Part shown: in pieces, positions 5,808 through 41,927 of the stretch
How positions within the stretch are numbered: position 1 is the stretch's first letter
How the letters are laid out: every line of letters begins with the position of its first letter
Origin: Acidobacteriota bacterium
GTDB taxonomy: Bacteria > Acidobacteriota > Thermoanaerobaculia > Gp7-AA8
Assembly (NCBI GenBank): GCA_021325515.1
Contig: JAJPHC010000033.1
Span: 1 to 41,927 of the forward strand
Reading direction: 5' to 3'
DNA length: 41,927 nucleotides
Translations under genes and position numbers: made by a program
Notes under the pieces: generated by a model
Databases searched by the model: none
Told to the model about the DNA's origin: nothing
What the model saw: the letters and a program-made list of their open reading frames with translations, nothing else

Positions 5808-6529
5808 GGGACCACGATCCCCGCGCGCGTCACCGCTTCCACGTTCGACTCGAACAGCTCGATCGCCTTCGCGCTACCCCAACGCTTCTCGACCCATCGG
5901 CGCGCCGCGGCCATTCTCGGCGGACGGCGTGACAGCGAGTGCGCATCCGACGCGATCGTGTGCACGAGGCCGCGCCGATGAAACTCCTCCGCTGCGGCAA
6001 GCGCCGCGCGGCCGAACTCGCCGAGCAGCGAGCCGGCCGTGATCTGCGTAACAGCTCCCTTCGCGCAGAGGGCTTCGAGGCGTTCCGGATTGTGCGCCAG
6101 CTCGCCGTTGCGCTCCGGATGCGCGATCACCACCTGGACGTTCATCACCGACAGCTCATGAAAGAGAAACTCGGCATTGATCGGCACTGCGTACGACGGA
6201 AATTCGATGAGCAGCGCGCTGCCGCGATTCAAACCGACGAGAGGTCCTTCGCTGCCGCGGTCCCACAAGTCCAGCACTTCGGCCGCGAAGAAGTACTCGC
6301 ATCCGGGCACGATCGCCGGCTTTCCGCCGAGGAGCGCGTTGAGCCGGACGAGAAGGCGATCGCGCTCCGCACGATCTTCATTCAGCCACGGCTCGCGCAA
6401 TACGTGCGGTGTCGCGACGATCGTCGTCGTTCCTTCATCCGCCGCCGCCTTGCAGAGAGCGACGGCGTCATCCCAGTTTCCCGGGCCGTCGTCGATGCCA
6501 GGCAGGCAGTGGAAGTGGATGTCGATCAT
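5804..6529 (-). CDS. CpsB/CapC-type tyrosine-protein phosphatase (PHP fold)
   Basis: The 241-residue protein begins MIDIHFHCLPGIDDGPGNW, the metal-binding HxHxxPxxDDG motif of the PHP-type manganese-dependent tyrosine phosphatases that reverse BY-kinase phosphorylation in capsule and exopolysaccharide synthesis. Further metal-ligand motifs are the ATPHV segment, PGCEYF, IAHPERN and the SDAHS motif near the C-terminus. The ATG at 6529 overlaps the stop of the kinase gene by four bases, as expected for a kinase-phosphatase pair that cycles the kinase tail. An upstream extension of the frame to 7135 is within the kinase gene and is not real. Confidence 0.9.
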   Translation of the reverse strand: MIDIHFHCLPGIDDGPGNWDDAVALCKAAADEGTTTIVATPHVLREPWLNEDRAERDRLLVRLNALLGGKPAIVPGCEYFFAAEVLDLWDRGSEGPLVGLNRGSALLIEFPSYAVPINAEFLFHELSVMNVQVVIAHPERNGELAHNPERLEALCAKGAVTQITAGSLLGEFGRAALAAAEEFHRRGLVHTIASDAHSLSRRPPRMAAARRWVEKRWGSAKAIELFESNVEAVTRAGIVVP

Positions 6530-9577: not shown

Positions 9578-11014
9578 GTGCGCGCCGAATCGCCTCTCGC
9601 GCGGATCGCGCTCCTCCTCCTGCTCGTCTACATCGTCATCGCCCCGCTGTCGTATGGCGCCATCACCCGCGGCGGAACGCTGGTTCTCGAGCTGTTTGCC
9701 TTCACGATTTTCGCGCTCGTCTTCGCCGGCACCCCGAACGTCGGGCGTCTCGCCGGAGTGAAGGTGACGATCGCCGCCATCGCGGCGATCCTCGCGCTCG
9801 GGATCCTCCATCTGATTCCGATGCCGAACGCGCTGCTCTCGGTTCTCTCTCCGGTCAGCGCCGCGATCTATCGCGATGCTTCCACGACGCTCGCGGCATT
9901 CGGCCACGCGGAGCCCGCAGCGCGCATCTCGATTGCGCCTACGGAAACGTGGGACACGCTCCTGCTCACTGCGGCGTATCTCGCGCTGTTCGTCTCGTCG
10001 ATCATCCTTCTTCGCTCGCGATCCCTGCGCCGGCTCTTCGTCATCGTGTTCATCACGAGCTCGCTCGTGCACATCCTGGCAGCGGCGGCGATGCGCAGTC
10101 TCTTCAGCACACCGGAGGAGGCGTCGTCGGGCGTGCGTATCCATGGTGCGTTCATCAATGCCAATCACTTCGCCGGCTACCTGGAGATGACGCTCGCGGT
10201 GGCGTTCGGTGTGTTGTGGCGCGAGGTCCTCTACTACCGCGAAGGCGTTCGCAAGGCGGCGGGCCGGGGAAGACGGTTCGAGAAGATCTTCATTCGCATT
10301 TCGCTGCGCGTCGTGTTGTGGGGAACGGTCGCCGCCGGCGTTGGTCTGACTCAATCGCGCGCGGGTATTCTCGCCGCTGTACTGACGACGATCGTGCTCC
10401 TCTCGATCGCACCGTCGCATCCACGGGTCGCCGCGCGCCGCTGGAGCTTCGCGACCGCGGGCAGCGGGGTGGTGGCGGCAGCGATCGGATTTACGATTCT
10501 CACCGCGCGCCAGCAGCCGATCATCCGCTTTCTGGGCTCCGATCCGCGCGATCCGGCGAGCGATCTCCGTCTGACGCTGTGGACCCTCTCGCTGAAAGCG
10601 TGGCGCAACTTTCCGCTGTTCGGTTCCGGCCTCGGCACCTTTCGCGAGGCGTTTCGCCGCGTCCAGCCGCGCGATCTCAATTACTACGTCGAGTTCGCAC
10701 ACAGCGACGCGCTGCAACTCCTCGTGACGGGAGGTCTCGCCGCGCTTCTCCTCGGCGCGATCGCGTTCGTCGCGCTGATGGCCGCCCTCCTCCGGCGATG
10801 GCACGCGGAGCCACGCCGCGAAGAAAGCGCGCTTCTGCTCGCAGGATTCGGCGCGATTCTCTCCCTCACGCTGCATGGTCTCGTCGAGTTCAACCTCTCG
10901 ATTCCCGCCATCCCCGCGACCCTCGCCTGTGTCGCCGGCCTTGGTTGGGCCGCTGCGCACGGGAACGAAGAGGAACAGCAACGGCAGGACATGCGTCTCG
11001 TGACGACTGACTGA
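9578..11014 (+). CDS. O-antigen ligase / polymerase-like membrane protein
   Basis: The 478-residue protein starts at GTG 9578 and has about ten to twelve hydrophobic segments, beginning LARIALLLLLVYIVIAPLSY. The central region holds FINANHFAGYLEM and, further on, TQSRAGILAAV. The large loop carries LWTLSLKAWRNFPLFGSGLG and GTFREAFRR, and a later VEFAHSDALQLLVTGG segment contains the conserved His. This is the layout of the Wzy_C/O-antigen ligase family, which joins or polymerises undecaprenol-linked glycans on the periplasmic side. Its place directly divergent from the Wzz/BY-kinase operon supports a role in the same exopolysaccharide. Whether it is ligase or polymerase cannot be decided from sequence. 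Confidence 0.85.
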   Translation: MRAESPLARIALLLLLVYIVIAPLSYGAITRGGTLVLELFAFTIFALVFAGTPNVGRLAGVKVTIAAIAAILALGILHLIPMPNALLSVLSPVSAAIYRDASTTLAAFGHAEPAARISIAPTETWDTLLLTAAYLALFVSSIILLRSRSLRRLFVIVFITSSLVHILAAAAMRSLFSTPEEASSGVRIHGAFINANHFAGYLEMTLAVAFGVLWREVLYYREGVRKAAGRGRRFEKIFIRISLRVVLWGTVAAGVGLTQSRAGILAAVLTTIVLLSIAPSHPRVAARRWSFATAGSGVVAAAIGFTILTARQQPIIRFLGSDPRDPASDLRLTLWTLSLKAWRNFPLFGSGLGTFREAFRRVQPRDLNYYVEFAHSDALQLLVTGGLAALLLGAIAFVALMAALLRRWHAEPRREESALLLAGFGAILSLTLHGLVEFNLSIPAIPATLACVAGLGWAAAHGNEEEQQRQDMRLVTTD

Positions 11015-33461: not shown

Positions 33462-34403
33462 ATGCACCGGCTGATCGAGCTCATTCTTCACTACGGCATT
33501 CCTCTCGTCTTCGCGAATGTCTTTCTCGAGCAGATCGGCGCGCCGATTCCCGCGGTGCCTACGCTCGTCGTCGCCGGTGCGCTCGCGCGCGACGGACGCT
33601 TGTCGTCGACGCACGTCCTCACCGCCGCGCTCATCGCCTCGCTGACGGCCGACTGGATCTGGTTCCTCCTCGGCCGCCGCTACGGATACCGCATCCTTCG
33701 CACGCTCTGCAAAATCTCGCTGTCGCCCGACACCTGCGTGCGCGAGACCGAGGCGAATTTCGAGAAGTGGGGGATGAAGTCGCTGCTGTTTGCGAAGTTC
33801 GTCCCCGGATTCTCGACCGTCGCGCCGCCGCTCGCCGGAGCGACGAAGGCGAGCACGCTCGAGTTTCTCGTCTACGACTCGATCGGCGCGTTTCTGTGGG
33901 CCGGCTCCGCCGTTGCCGCCGGCCGCGCGTTCCATCATCAGATCGGAAGGCTTCTGCAGCGGTTCGAGGATCTCGGCTGGTGGTCGGTTACGATCGTCGT
34001 ATCAATCGCCGCGCTGATCGTGCTCGTCAAGTGGTATCAGCGCCTCCACTTCTACAGACAACTGCGCGTCGCGCGCATCAGCGTGGCCGAGGTGAAGGAC
34101 ATGTTCGACCGCGGAGAGTCGCCGGTCGTGATGGATGTCCGCACGCGCGCAGCGCGCAAGCATGATCTCCGGAGAATTCCCACCGCGATCGTCGCCGCGA
34201 CACCGGAAGAAGTGGCGCAGCAACTCGCGGCGATTCCTGTCGGCTCGCCGATCATCCTCTACTGCACGTGACCCAACGAGGCCTCAGCCGCCCGTGTGGC
34301 GCGCATGCTGATGGATCGGGGATACATGAAGGTGCGGCCGCTCGCCGGCGGATTCGACGCCTGGGTCGACGCCGGATATCCACTCGAGGAGTTGAGCGAA
34401 TGA
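33462..34403 (+). CDS. DedA-rhodanese fusion, candidate selenoprotein (UGA at codon 270)
   Basis: The N-terminal part (residues 1-200) is a DedA/SNARE-associated membrane protein: VFLEQIGAPIPAVPTLVVAG, FLLGRRYGYRIL, and FAKFVPGFSTVAPPLAGAT. It is followed by a transmembrane helix and a C-terminal rhodanese domain (about 208-313). A UGA at 34269-34271 interrupts the frame within YCT-UGA-PNEASAARVARML. In related DedA-rhodanese proteins, as I recall them, this motif reads YCxCPNEA, so UGA occupies the place of the second cysteine. The frame continues to TGA 34401-34403 with PLAGGFDAWVDAGYP, a good rhodanese end, and this stop overlaps the next ATG (ATGA). With selenocysteine the protein is 313 residues, Sec270 next to Cys268. 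A conventional gene call would end at 34271. Alternatives are a disrupted gene or a base error. Confidence 0.8.
34284..34311 (+). promoter_or_regulatory. Candidate bacterial SECIS hairpin
   Basis: Starting 12 bases after the in-frame UGA, TCAGC (34284-34288) pairs with GCTGA (34307-34311). Stacked on it, CGCC (34289-34292) pairs with GGCG (34298-34301), closing a CGTGT loop (34293-34297); a five-base bulge is on the 3' side. Loop distance from the UGA (about 22 bases) and a G in the first two loop positions agree with bacterial SECIS features. GC-rich sequence makes chance hairpins common, so this is weak on its own. Confidence 0.35.
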
Positions 34404-38215: not shown

Positions 38216-38845
38216 ATGGAAATGAAGACCTACAAAGCGAAACAGTTCAATCTCAGCGGGCTCACCGGCATCTCCGACAAGACGCTGGAGATGCACTTCA
38301 AGCTCTATGAAGGCTATGTCACGAACACGAACACGCTGACGGAGCGGATTGCGGCGATCCTCTCCGACGGAAAAGTCGATCAGGAAGAGATGCCTGCGTA
38401 TTCGGAGCTGACGCGCCGTCTGGGCTTCGAGTACAACGGGATGGTTCTGCACGAGTACTACTTCGGCAACCTGCGCAATGGTGGCGGAGGAGATCCGGAT
38501 CGCCGGTCGGAGTTCATGCAGGCGGTTTCGCGGAGCTTCCCTTCCTACGAGATCTGGAAGGCGGATTTCGTCAGTGTGGGAAAGATGCGCGGCGTCGGCT
38601 GGGCGATCTGCTACCTCGATCCCGCCAACGGCCTCGTCTCGAATCACTGGATCACGCTGCATGAGACCGGCAACGTCGCCGGCTTCATCCCGCTGCTGGT
38701 GATGGATGTGTGGGAACACGCGTTCCTCCTCGACTACAAGCCATCGGATCGCCCGAAATACATCGAGGCATTCATGGCCAACGTCGATTGGAACGTGATC
38801 GAGAGCCGGCTGAGCGCGGTTCAGGTGAGTGCAACGGCGCGTTAG
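38216..38845 (+). CDS. Fe/Mn superoxide dismutase family protein
   Basis: The 209-residue cytoplasmic protein matches the Fe/Mn-SOD fold. An N-terminal helix pair contains LEMHFKLYEGYVTNTNTL (first metal His), LHEYYFGNL carries the second His, and the C-terminal domain has the DVWEHAFLLDY metal-ligand motif (Asp and His). WAICYLD corresponds to the usual SOD central strand. It detoxifies superoxide to peroxide and oxygen. The residues deciding Fe or Mn preference could not be fixed. It is the last chromosomal gene before the integron cassette array; the EgtB-like gene ends 52 bases upstream. Confidence 0.88.
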   Translation: MEMKTYKAKQFNLSGLTGISDKTLEMHFKLYEGYVTNTNTLTERIAAILSDGKVDQEEMPAYSELTRRLGFEYNGMVLHEYYFGNLRNGGGGDPDRRSEFMQAVSRSFPSYEIWKADFVSVGKMRGVGWAICYLDPANGLVSNHWITLHETGNVAGFIPLLVMDVWEHAFLLDYKPSDRPKYIEAFMANVDWNVIESRLSAVQVSATAR

Positions 38846-39168
38846 CCACGGATAGGCAACCGGTGCTCCGCACAGAGCGCCACACGCAACACCATTCGAT
38901 CGCCGCCCACCTGCTGGAGGCGGCTACGACGATGGTGTACTGCTATGTGTAGAGCGCGCGTGGAGAATTGATGGGCTCAGGAAGTCAGCCTATCGCAGCC
39001 GAAATAGGCTGCCCAAAAACAGCCTATCGCACACCAGTCCCGAACTAGGCCGACAACGATGCGGGCTGCGCGAAGGAGTAAAATCAACCCCAAGAGCTGG
39101 TTGGCCGGGAAGGACCATGATTCCGCGTTTCCGGTTTGGAGTGGTACGTGTAATCAGCTTAGGACCCA
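38846..39168 (+). other. Non-coding leader of the cassette array (possible attI region)
   Basis: No gene is supported here. It contains an ordered set of repeats: CAGCCTATCGCA at 38986-38997 and again at 39020-39031, with the inverse TAGGCTG at 39005-39011 between them. ATAGGCTG (39004-39011) and CAGCCTAT (39020-39027) form an 8-bp hairpin, and GCAGCC (38995-39000) with GGCTGC (39007-39012) a rival one. The stretch ends in the integron core site. An integrase gene would be expected here in a complete integron but none is present. Confidence 0.5.
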
Positions 39169-39175
39169 GTTAGAC
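39169..39175 (+). other. Integron core site at array start (attI-like)
   Basis: GTTAGAC at 39169-39175 fits GTTRRRY and begins cassette 1. No RYYYAAC partner and no imperfect palindrome of attC type lies upstream within about 150 bases, so it is more like an attI than an attC core. The following CGCC matches the reverse complement of the cassette-1 R'' context. Confidence 0.6.
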
Positions 39176-39180
39176 GCCTA

Positions 39181-39420
39181 ATGTTAAGAATCTGGCTCGC
39201 ATTCATGTTCGTGGCTTTCGCGGTCACGGTCGTCGCCGGCTCCATGGTCCAGATTCGCGAGCATGGATCGGCGAAGGCCTTTCGTGAGCGCCGTCTGCTC
39301 GACGTCTATTGGCACGAGCGAACCGCGCTCGAACGCGCACTGCTCTGGCCGGGCTTCATTGCGTTCTTGGTAACCGTCATCGCCATCGCAATCGCAACTC
39401 TCGTTCGGCGATTCGTCTGA
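39181..39420 (+). CDS. Cassette 1: small membrane protein (79 aa)
   Basis: This short protein starts 6 bases after the core site and has two hydrophobic helices (about 2-22, LRIWLAFMFVAFAVTVVAGS, and 57-77, FIAFLVTVIAIAIATLVRRF) with a charged loop between them (residues 25-52). No family is recognised. No Shine-Dalgarno is seen, as is common for cassette genes. It is preceded only by the attI-like core and so is the first cassette in line for any external promoter. Confidence 0.7.
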   Translation: MLRIWLAFMFVAFAVTVVAGSMVQIREHGSAKAFRERRLLDVYWHERTALERALLWPGFIAFLVTVIAIAIATLVRRFV

Positions 39421-39530
39421 ATCACCGCGGTCGGGAAGCAGTGGTCGACCGCTTGTTGCCAGCGAATCGTGTGGGGCGCGACCGACTCATCGGCAAAACA
39501 CGCCAGGAGATCAACCGGCAAGTGGCCGGC

Positions 39531-39632
39531 GTCTAACTCTCGGCTGCAGCGGACTTCGACCCGCTCGCCGGCCATGCTATCCTGCACGTTCTTCGCGGCG
39601 GGTCGAAGCCGCTGAGCCGAAAAACGTTGGGC
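39531..39632 (+). repeat. attC site of cassette 1
   Basis: R'' GTCTAAC (39531-39537) and R' GTTGGGC (39626-39632). Inner arms: GCAGCGGACTTCGACCCGC against GCGGGTCGAAGCCGCTGA, pairing with one or two unpaired bases of the extrahelical type. R'' with its flank is the exact complement of the cassette's own 5' end GTTAGACGCC. Confidence 0.9.
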
Positions 39633-39676
39633 GGCTAAAGAAACCCTGCGATAACGGCACGAAGGTACAACTGGTC

Positions 39677-40087
39677 ATGACGGTATCGCTTCACGCTGGC
39701 CCAGAATCGTTTGAAGTTGGCGCGGGTTCGTTCTTCAACTCGTTCTTTTCCACCGTTTCCGCTCGCTTGGAGAATGACCGGTGGGGATCTCGTTTCCCTG
39801 CCATCATGAAGGGGCTGTTTCCCGGCCGGCTCCCCGCTGATGCAATTCCCGTTGCGCTCGCGGAGCTTCGATCCATACGCCAGGAGTTCGCGCGCCTTCA
39901 ACCGGATGCGCTGGTTTGGGATTACGAAGACCGAACGAAAGGGCCACCTTGGGGTAAGCAGCGCGCCGGCTACATCACCACTCTTGCAGAGAATTTCGTC
40001 ACTTCCGACGGCAAAGATCTCTTTGAAGTGATCAAGGCAGCACTGGAAACGGCCGCTTCGCGAAACTGCGACGTTGAGATCAAGTAA
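39677..40087 (+). CDS. Cassette 2: Imm70-like immunity protein (136 aa)
   Basis: The protein opens TVSLHAGPESFEVGAGSFFN, followed by SFFSTVSARLENDRWGSRFP. Its middle part PADAIPVALAEL ends in VWDYEDRTKGPPWG, and the C-terminal ITTLAENFVTSDGKDLFEVI closes the domain. These are the segments I associate with the Imm70 immunity family of polymorphic-toxin systems; homologues usually protect against a cognate toxin. No toxin is encoded in the same cassette, so it could be an orphan immunity protein captured by the integron. There is no signal peptide, fitting a cytoplasmic role. Family assignment is from memory. Confidence 0.65.
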   Translation: MTVSLHAGPESFEVGAGSFFNSFFSTVSARLENDRWGSRFPAIMKGLFPGRLPADAIPVALAELRSIRQEFARLQPDALVWDYEDRTKGPPWGKQRAGYITTLAENFVTSDGKDLFEVIKAALETAASRNCDVEIK

Positions 40088-40099
40088 CCAGTGTTCGCC

Positions 40100-40205
40100 G
40101 CCCAACTCGCGCTTGCAGCGGACGTGGCCCGCTGCGTTGCCGCGTCGCAAGTGCGTTACCATTTCGCGTCGCGGGCCACGCCGCTGAAGCGCAGCTCCGT
40201 TAGGC
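40100..40205 (+). repeat. attC site of cassette 2
   Basis: R'' GCCCAAC (40100-40106) and R' GTTAGGC (40199-40205). Inner arms are GCAGCGGACGTGGCCCGC and GCGGGCCACGCCGCTGA. R'' context GCCGCCCAAC is the reverse complement of the start of cassette 2, GTTGGGCGGC. Confidence 0.9.
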
Positions 40206-40211
40206 GCCTGA

Positions 40212-40571
40212 ATGTACGTCGCAGTAATAGGGTTGTTTCTTCTCGAGATCACGTGCCTCATCGTGGCTTGGGCCTCCATCTCATCAGCCACTGACCTAGG
40301 TTTGGCGCGACGGCTCGTGACCAGATTCTCGCTGGTTCTCATCAGTGGGGCCGCGGCGGCGCAGGCATATCACTACGGGTGGGCGGTGTTCGGTTGGCCG
40401 TACGGGTCGCGTCGGTTCTTCGACATCTTTGTGCAGGTACTGATCGTCATCTCGGCCGTCGCCTTCGCCGGCTCATGGTTCGCCAAAGGAAGGCTTCGCG
40501 CATCGGCGCTCATCGCTTCCGCTTTGGTCGGTGCGTTCTGGTATATGGTCGCCGTAATTTCGTGGGTGTGA
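40212..40571 (+). CDS. Cassette 3: four-helix membrane protein (119 aa)
   Basis: ATG 40212 follows the core site by 6 bases. The protein has four hydrophobic segments (about 3-25, 37-55, 68-88 and 97-117) and short loops; the second loop contains WPYGSRRFF. No family is recognised. It is promoterless within its cassette and would rely on read-through from cassette 2 or further upstream. Confidence 0.65.
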   Translation: MYVAVIGLFLLEITCLIVAWASISSATDLGLARRLVTRFSLVLISGAAAAQAYHYGWAVFGWPYGSRRFFDIFVQVLIVISAVAFAGSWFAKGRLRASALIASALVGAFWYMVAVISWV

Positions 40572-40654
40572 CAGTTCGGACTGCTTCGAAGCACCGTACC
40601 AAGATCACTTCAAATGGCTGGGAGTCCCAAGAATTCAATCGGCAAGTGGCGGGC

Positions 40655-40772
40655 GCCTAACTCGGCACTGCAGCGGATGCCGTGCCGTTCGTCGCCGCTT
40701 TCCGTTCGAGCGTCACCTTCAGGTATGCTGTCGTGTGAGGCACGGCACCGCTGAGTGCCAACAACGTTAGGC
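40655..40772 (+). repeat. attC site of cassette 3
   Basis: R'' GCCTAAC (40655-40661) and R' GTTAGGC (40766-40772). Inner arms are GCAGCGGATGCCGTGCC and GGCACGGCACCGCTGA. It is the longest of the five (118 bases) because of a larger apical loop. Own-end match: GGCGCCTAAC is complementary to GTTAGGCGCC at the start of cassette 3. Confidence 0.9.
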
Positions 40773-40781
40773 GTCTCGACC

Positions 40782-41063
40782 ATGAAATACCCCGACCGAC
40801 ATCCAGCACTCCGACTCTATTTGCGCCTTGGATCGGTGATCACCTTCCTCGGCGCTTTTTGGGTGATCGTCGGCGCTGTTGCCAACGCCAAGGCCGGCCC
40901 GCATCCCGGTGAGGCCGCTCCATGGCAGCTTGCCTGGTGGGGAATGTTCGGGTGGGGCTATGGTGTCGCGCTGATCGTTCTTGGCGTGTGCATTCTCATC
41001 GTTCGTGCTGTCAGAAAACGCTCAGTCCTTTTCGGTGATCGCATCCGGAACGAGTACAACTAG
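40782..41063 (+). CDS. Cassette 4: small membrane protein (93 aa)
   Basis: Start at ATG 40782 (MKYPDRHPALRLYLRLG); an upstream ATG at 40755 lies inside attC and is not likely. Two hydrophobic helices (about 18-36, SVITFLGAFWVIVGAVANA, and 55-77, GYGVALIVLGVCILIVRAV) flank a Trp-rich loop (PWQLAWWGMFGWG). No family is recognised. Confidence 0.65.
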   Translation: MKYPDRHPALRLYLRLGSVITFLGAFWVIVGAVANAKAGPHPGEAAPWQLAWWGMFGWGYGVALIVLGVCILIVRAVRKRSVLFGDRIRNEYN

Positions 41064-41170
41064 CGCGGGCCGAAGTCCCTTGAACCGCAAAGATTTTCGT
41101 GTGCGGTACCAAGGTCGCAAGACCTCAGACCCCACAGGGCTACCAAGAAATCAACCGGCAAGTGGCACGC

Positions 41171-41272
41171 GCCTAACTCATGGCTGCAGCGGACTTCGTC
41201 CCGCTCGCCGGCTATACTATCCTGCAAGTCTCTGCCGGCGGAACGAAGCCGCTGAGCCAAGGGACGTTGGGC
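41171..41272 (+). repeat. attC site of cassette 4
   Basis: R'' GCCTAAC (41171-41177) and R' GTTGGGC (41266-41272). Inner arms are GCAGCGGACTTCGTCCCGC and GCGGAACGAAGCCGCTGA. The R'' context CGCCTAAC complements the cassette's own GTTAGGCG start. Confidence 0.9.
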
Positions 41273-41283
41273 GTCTGAAGACT

Positions 41284-41706
41284 ATGGTGGAGCCGGTCGA
41301 GGTCTGGAACCAACTCATCGCAAGAAGTGGCGACCCATCGTCGAAATCCCTTAGCGAAGATGAACGGGCCATTCTGCTCACGAACGTGCTTTTGATCGAA
41401 ACCGAGAACGGCGGCATCTCCGGTCTCCTCTACAACCTCTCCCCCGTAGATCGTGCCTCTTGGTCAGAACTGCGAAGGACCGCGGCTGCAGTTTCTAGGG
41501 TCTGCGTCCATGGCATTGGGGAGTCGCTTTCGGAACTGGCGGACATCCTTGAGAAGGCTCCGCAGTCAAACATCACAGAAACCTGGGGAAGGTTCCTCGC
41601 CCATGTGAGCAACGACCATTTCACCAATCTCACCTCGAGGATCGAGGTACACGTAGGTGATCTCTGGGAAGAGCTTGAAGACTTCACCATCCTGCATTCG
41701 TTCTGA
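41284..41706 (+). CDS. Cassette 5: DMP19-like (DUF4375) protein (140 aa)
   Basis: Start at ATG 41284, 11 bases past the core site. The protein contains the signature-like segment IETENGGISGLLYNLSP, compatible with the E-x-x-NGG-x-x-x-x-x-x-N motif of the DMP19/DUF4375 family, then a helical region AAAVSRVCVHGIGESLSELADILE. DMP19 of Neisseria is a DNA-mimic protein that binds a repressor; many relatives have no known role and occur beside immunity genes. The net charge is acidic, in keeping with the family. The assignment is tentative. Confidence 0.55.
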   Translation: MVEPVEVWNQLIARSGDPSSKSLSEDERAILLTNVLLIETENGGISGLLYNLSPVDRASWSELRRTAAAVSRVCVHGIGESLSELADILEKAPQSNITETWGRFLAHVSNDHFTNLTSRIEVHVGDLWEELEDFTILHSF

Positions 41707-41722
41707 CATCGCCATCAACGAC

Positions 41723-41823
41723 GCCCAACTTTCAGCTGCAGCGGACTTCGACCCGCTCGCTGGTATCCTTGGCTTCACGCTTCCCGTGGCGGGTCGAAGC
41801 CGCTGAGCTGGAGGCCGTTGGGC
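41723..41823 (+). repeat. attC site of cassette 5
   Basis: R'' GCCCAAC (41723-41729) and R' GTTGGGC (41817-41823). Inner arms are GCAGCGGACTTCGACCCGC and GCGGGTCGAAGCCGCTGA, nearly identical to attC of cassette 1. The R'' context GACGCCCAAC complements GTTGGGCGTC at the start of cassette 5. Confidence 0.9.
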
Positions 41824-41855
41824 GGACGACGCGAGCTTTGAAGGGTAGATCATAG

Positions 41856-41927
41856 ATGCCTGTCGCCTCGATCCCACGAAGTGTTTGGCTCGCGTGCGGA
41901 GGGCTCGCGCTCATCTCGTTCGTCGCG
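41856..41927 (+). CDS. Cassette 6: partial ORF, hydrophobic N-terminus
   Basis: ATG 41856 opens a frame to the window end: MPVASIPRSVWLACGGLALI and a few more residues. The hydrophobic segment from about residue 10 looks like a membrane helix or a signal peptide. Only 24 residues are visible, so no family can be named. It lies 33 bases after the attC of cassette 5. Confidence 0.4.
   Translation, partial: MPVASIPRSVWLACGGLALISFVA

Follow-up and report, generated by a model that had tools for sequence, protein, structure and literature searches.

A cassette array behind a superoxide dismutase gene of an Acidobacteriota bacterium as a probable relic second integron

The window analysed here, the entire contig C3 of 41,927 b (JAJPHC010000033.1, positions 1–41927) from the genome of an Acidobacteriota bacterium (GCA_021325515.1; 63 contigs, 5,377,942 bases), ends in an array of integron cassettes with attC sites which follows a Fe/Mn superoxide dismutase (SOD) gene and is adjoined by no intact integrase gene (intI). 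The locus raises the question of whether such an array is the relic of a lost integrase or a cassette store used in trans, both of which had been offered in a preliminary description. The evidence bears out the first and makes the second plausible: the array is probably a relic second integron, its own integrase dead and its sites intact-looking, whose cassettes would be moved in trans by the integrase (IntI) encoded on another contig of the same genome, C31.

The interval 38846–39168, between the SOD gene and the first cassette, had been described as free of intI. It contains no intI reading frame, but the decayed 3'-end of an intI gene (38875–38971, + strand) and a complete attI were found there. 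The relic was delimited by DNA alignment to the end of the C31 intI and by tblastn, its last codons being taken from the alignment. Positions 38875–38930 agree with the 3'-end of the C31 intI in 47 of 58 columns, with two one-base gaps, and the alignment score of 66 exceeds both the maximum of 51 in 5000 shuffles (0/5000 as good) and the maximum of 51 among 1386 other pieces of the window (0/1386 reach it). The reading frame could be traced to 38949 across a 16-residue gap (tblastn, E 2e-4 in the 325 b interval), and every one of the ten IntI proteins of the family aligns at the position of the relic. Because the frame breaks and is further interrupted by the gap and by a stop, this intI is, as read from its sequence, dead.

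The relic leads into a segment (38961–39171) that over 212 b shares 88% identity with the sequence behind the C31 intI (C31:18351–18562), and the likeness breaks off at GTT, the cassette joining point. Both stretches are taken to be attI sites. The one in the window spans 38972–39175 (+ strand), with the crossover between 39169 and 39170, and its core ATCAGCTTAGGACCCAGTTAGAC at 39153–39175 (+ strand) was recovered by pattern search with zero mismatch at C3, C31 and a third contig, C53. The core pattern ATCAGCTTAGGACCNAGTTRR gave 0 mismatches at these same three places and 3 mismatches at C14, while the backwards control gave 0 sites. Among the intI loci of relatives (n = 12), eight carry attC sites behind intI, in the direction in which intI reads, and none was found at the other four; SOD, intI end, attI and cassettes is therefore the order expected in this family. 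Remnant and attI stand in that order and direction, which bears out the proposal of a lost integrase. Compared with a complete integron, the SOD locus has only the decayed 3'-end in place of an intact intI, and an attI, recognised by its likeness to the C31 stretch, between the intI end and the first cassette.

The search for intI elsewhere in the genome gave one match above the cut-off, C31:17414–18361 (470.7 bits, cut-off 265), encoding a full-length member of TIGR02249 (positions 1–315 of 315) with no internal stop. Its closest match among the best 80 of 168 IntI loci on outside contigs of mixed phyla has 64% identity. In a tree of 43 sequences (10 from the family and 33 selected from those best 80), the IntI proteins of the family joined eight IntI of Acidobacteriota in one fork with support 84/85; the family requires two changes, not one, which is a hint only. 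The earlier suggestion of a store used in trans is plausible since the C31 IntI gene precedes an attI nearly identical to that of the window, and since the attI-type sites on C31, C26 and C14 are all followed by one common segment, X; the trans action itself is what we infer. Most likely, the C31 IntI would still recognise the attI and attC sites of the window and move cassettes there. Elsewhere in the genome, three tyrosine recombinase domains occur within one short contig (C63:1–7118).

Five attC sites had been claimed and all five were confirmed: attC1 (39531–39632), attC2 (40100–40205), attC3 (40655–40772), attC4 (41171–41272) and attC5 (41723–41823), all on the + strand and each returned by the box/duplex scan, the covariance model and the strict scan. 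They carry RYYYAAC and GTTRRRY boxes, with at most one box mismatch in four sites and two in attC1, and co-varying pairing arms. The strict scan (boxes with ≤2 mismatches, arm duplex below −18; thresholds chosen after the array was seen) returned attC1–attC5 from both strands of the window and nothing further; the looser box scan also gave two unrelated box pairs at 10888–10950 and 34271–34397. The covariance model, R1, was built from the five sites, which match it by construction; outside the array it gave a single weak match in the window (5877–5968, − strand, 21.6 bits, E 0.0097), and when 150 of the 4977 first-look candidates of the source genome were scored with it, 31 sites reached E ≤ 1. 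Covariation was assessed over the 27 sites with E ≤ 1e-6, which lie in 10 stretches and include the five of the window, in an alignment fitted to R1. In this set 90.1% of cells were paired, and cells with both sides changed numbered 104, against 35.1 in shuffles and ≤17 with the partner slid. The five attC sites are genuine, because the strict scan finds those alone and 27 sites of the same type co-vary; they may be recombinable by IntI as folded single strands. The sites of cassettes 1, 4 and 5 had been called the most alike, and this holds: in a 45-nt block attC4 and attC5 share 87% with attC1, against 64% for attC2 and 69% for attC3. Recent activity, which had been argued from this likeness, does not follow with any force, as alike attC sites within one array are usual in chromosomal integrons.

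Where six cassettes had been counted, five are complete and the sixth is cut by the contig end; all are on the + strand. Cassette 1 (39170–39626, open reading frame (ORF) 39181–39420), cassette 3 (40200–40766, ORF 40212–40571) and cassette 4 (40767–41266, ORF 40782–41063) encode products for which the Pfam search gave nothing at E ≤ 0.01. The product of cassette 2 (39627–40199, ORF 39677–40087) is an Imm70 immunity-type protein (138 bits, cut-off 26.7), and that of cassette 5 (41267–41817, ORF 41284–41706) is weakly DMP19-like (27 bits, cut-off 25). Cassette 6 (41818–41927) is incomplete. A PADLOC search of the five cassette proteins gave no match at E ≤ 0.01. Together with its approach, the attC1 site shares 91% identity over 130 b with C53:6978–7107, and one terminator-like site on the − strand was found at 38800–39300.

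The place of the array was examined in 18 genomes of the family, namely the source genome and 17 relatives, none of these 17 from the source genus. The SOD gene, which in the window occupies 38216–38845 (+ strand; Pfam Sod_Fe_C 74.3 bits, Sod_Fe_N 26 bits with a cut-off of 27), is present in all 18. At the 18 SOD loci of the 17 relatives the attC model found no site (best E 0.46), so that within this set the array at SOD occurs in the source genome only. A gene of the first 6 kb of contig C2 stands at most 1.5 kb behind SOD in 10/17 relatives, being the one at about 0.9–2.4 kb of C2 in seven and the one at about 4.5–5.5 kb in three. For this reason C2 is probably the far side of the window array, which would then lie between SOD and the C2 gene, a join that rests on synteny. 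C2 opens with a mobile element end, then an attC site at 90–205 (27.5 bits) and a cassette, followed by the gene at about 0.9–2.4 kb, before which a degenerate last attC was seen by eye. As for an intI to the right of the array, no intI-like match was obtained in the first 6 kb of C2, and an unassembled gap separates C3 from C2. The Rfam search of the window gave one tRNA.

Other contigs also end within arrays. One identical sequence of 83–107 b is common to the starts of C16 and C2 and the ends of C6 and C54, and another of 93 b to the ends of C53 and C24; both sit within the 5' arm of an attC site. Probably the two repeats mark opposite ends of a single mobile element, by which attC sites are split and at which the assembly breaks off. 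An IS1111-attC element would be a candidate. That attC is targeted by some IS1111 members is described in PMC11187229.

Taken together, the second integron would be located between SOD and the gene now at the start of C2, in the order SOD, intI 3' relic, attI, cassettes, assembly gap, mobile element end, last attC with cassette, and flanking gene, its integrase having either decayed in place or arrived already truncated. Several points weigh against this reading. At the protein level the relic reaches only E 0.26 over the full window, and its score was matched by 1/3000 shuffles. The other genomes searched all belong to other genera, and the intI search beside SOD in relatives (E 0.1) also missed the relic of the source genome, so that it excludes an intact intI only. 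In 7/17 relatives C2 provides no neighbour of SOD, two of these having had less than 600 b available, and the SOD neighbours of relatives were compared only with 13 stretches of the source genome. The link from C3 to C2 spans the unassembled gap, where an intI could lie. With regard to service in trans, no recombination was observed, the C3 and C31 copies of attI are 12% apart, the cassette genes of the window were not found in the other arrays compared (matches were confined to attC regions), and no sigma-70-like promoter, the only type covered by the search, was found at 38800–39300, which also leaves the cassette promoter Pc with 0 sites of that type.

Frame breaks in the relic, the distance between the attI copies, cassette genes unseen in other arrays and the absence of a promoter-like site would suit the same decayed integron with no integrase serving it, its attI and attC merely not yet eroded. 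This is unlikely, though it is the strongest of the alternatives: the attI core is the same as in C31 and C53, four of the five attC sites keep their boxes with at most one mismatch, and the genome encodes an intact IntI ahead of an attI nearly identical to this one. An assembly split or strain mixture, by which the array would merely have become detached from the C31 integron, has in its favour that at least eight contigs end in arrays or repeated segments, and that draft genomes are said in PMC9024848 to inflate the counts of clusters of attC sites lacking integron-integrases (CALIN). It appears very improbable, given that C3 and C31 do not share one attI but have one apiece, which differ by 12% and have unlike flanks on both sides, that the contamination of the genome is stated as 0, and that synteny points to C2 as the far side. 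Still less credible is an off-target insertion, in which IntI placed cassettes at a chance attG site behind SOD; such insertion is among the CALIN origins proposed in PMC8618304, but a chance site would be expected to have neither the 212 b attI nor the intI remnant that precede the first cassette here. The relic second integron, served from C31, is thus preferred.

The attI core on C53 belongs to a separate, palindromic site type, which is present at C24, C14 and C26 as well. In 147 genomes of the class, source genome included, the palindrome pattern (≤3 mismatches) was found in three, with four sites in the source genome and one each in G009 and G011, which represent two other genera; the backwards control found none. 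The first palindrome begins 82 or 83 b before GTT in 6/6 sites, GTTRRRC follows in all six, and in five the longest reading frame on the same strand stops no more than 30 b from the palindrome, the distance in the sixth being 150 b. Sites of attC follow at C53, C24, G011 and G009 (one, then the contig end), and only segment X is visible after GTT at C14 and C26. The G011 array is unbroken on one contig, with the palindromic site, three attC and about 11 kb more of contig, and no intI-like match was obtained in the 16 kb around the site. None of the seven stretches around the palindromic sites and at C2 gave an intI-like match, and no palindromic site lies on any contig where intI was detected. 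These sites are probably integrase-free attI platforms, which we infer to be served in trans by one IntI. They could instead be leftovers of other lost integrons, but the palindrome pattern is on none of the intI contigs of the family.

Segment X follows GTT at C31:18561–18665, C14:1–178 and C26:1–105; its 105 b are identical in C31 and C26, the C14 copy is 98% identical, and the assembly contains no more than 178 b of it. Inspection by eye places the start of a gene with a ribosome site about 165 b in. The segment may be a cassette or a mobile element; if a cassette, it has been placed at both attI types, which would favour a single integrase for the two. A distributed integron, in which one integrase would serve about six attI platforms across the chromosome, and in which the palindromic class would be integrase-free, sited behind gene ends, spread in at least three genera and used in trans only, is put forward tentatively, the odds being somewhat against it.

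Some observations concern the surroundings of these sites. A 111-aa protein is encoded directly before the palindromic site at C26 (L204:192–527) and G009 (L202:838–1170), 60% identical between the two genera and without a Pfam match; homologues lie immediately upstream of intI and on the strand opposite to it in three of the best 80 IntI loci (L091, L130 and L146). The gene before the C24 site has a match in 8/18 family genomes at E ≤ 1e-60 (source and seven relatives, 43–55% identity); its neighbours there gave no match to the array-end contigs and one unrelated match to C14, and the attC model at those loci reached E 0.012 at best (L229), the rest being 0.12 or worse. Small attC clusters inside contigs (C52:85563–86388 and C24:2162–2236) have, by eye, no attI-like site upstream.

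The array had been named CALIN-like, and the working definition fits: five attC sites are present where at least two are asked for, and no intact intI adjoins, the sole intI above the cut-off being on C31 and the C3–C2 gap being unsequenced. Like a CALIN, the window array has several attC and an intI elsewhere in the genome; unlike what the label conveys, it retains its attI in full and a remnant of intI. According to PMC9024848, IntegronFinder detects attI for class 1 only, and therefore CALINs that bear an attI of another class would not be told apart. In titles and abstract openings of the open-licence PMC literature, arrays on integrase-free attI were not recognised, which is no proof of absence.

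A decayed integrase copy beside an intact one in the same genome is already known from intI pseudogenes, some of which are described as intragenomic duplicates (PMC2426708); the window differs in keeping only the last part of the gene, and the palindromic sites in having no intI-like match nearby. In Treponema-type integrons, as in the source family, intI reads toward attI, in the cassette direction, but the source IntI is of another lineage, and the one attI per integron described for that type (PMC3607928) contrasts with the several attI-type sites of the source genome. The attG insertions of PMC12444791 and the delta-attI cassettes of PMC12901181 are, as here, IntI products away from the main attI, whereas the extra sites of the source genome form sequence families, one of the same type as the intI-linked attI and one palindromic with a fixed crossover distance. 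What is newer is how many attI-type sites one genome contains and of what kinds, the palindromic ones suggesting that docking sites can multiply without an integrase; if so, one enzyme could write into several places of a chromosome. Of the three routes proposed for the origin of arrays without integrase in PMC8618304, the window locus would show one half-way, the integrase lost, attI and cassettes retained and an intact integrase elsewhere.

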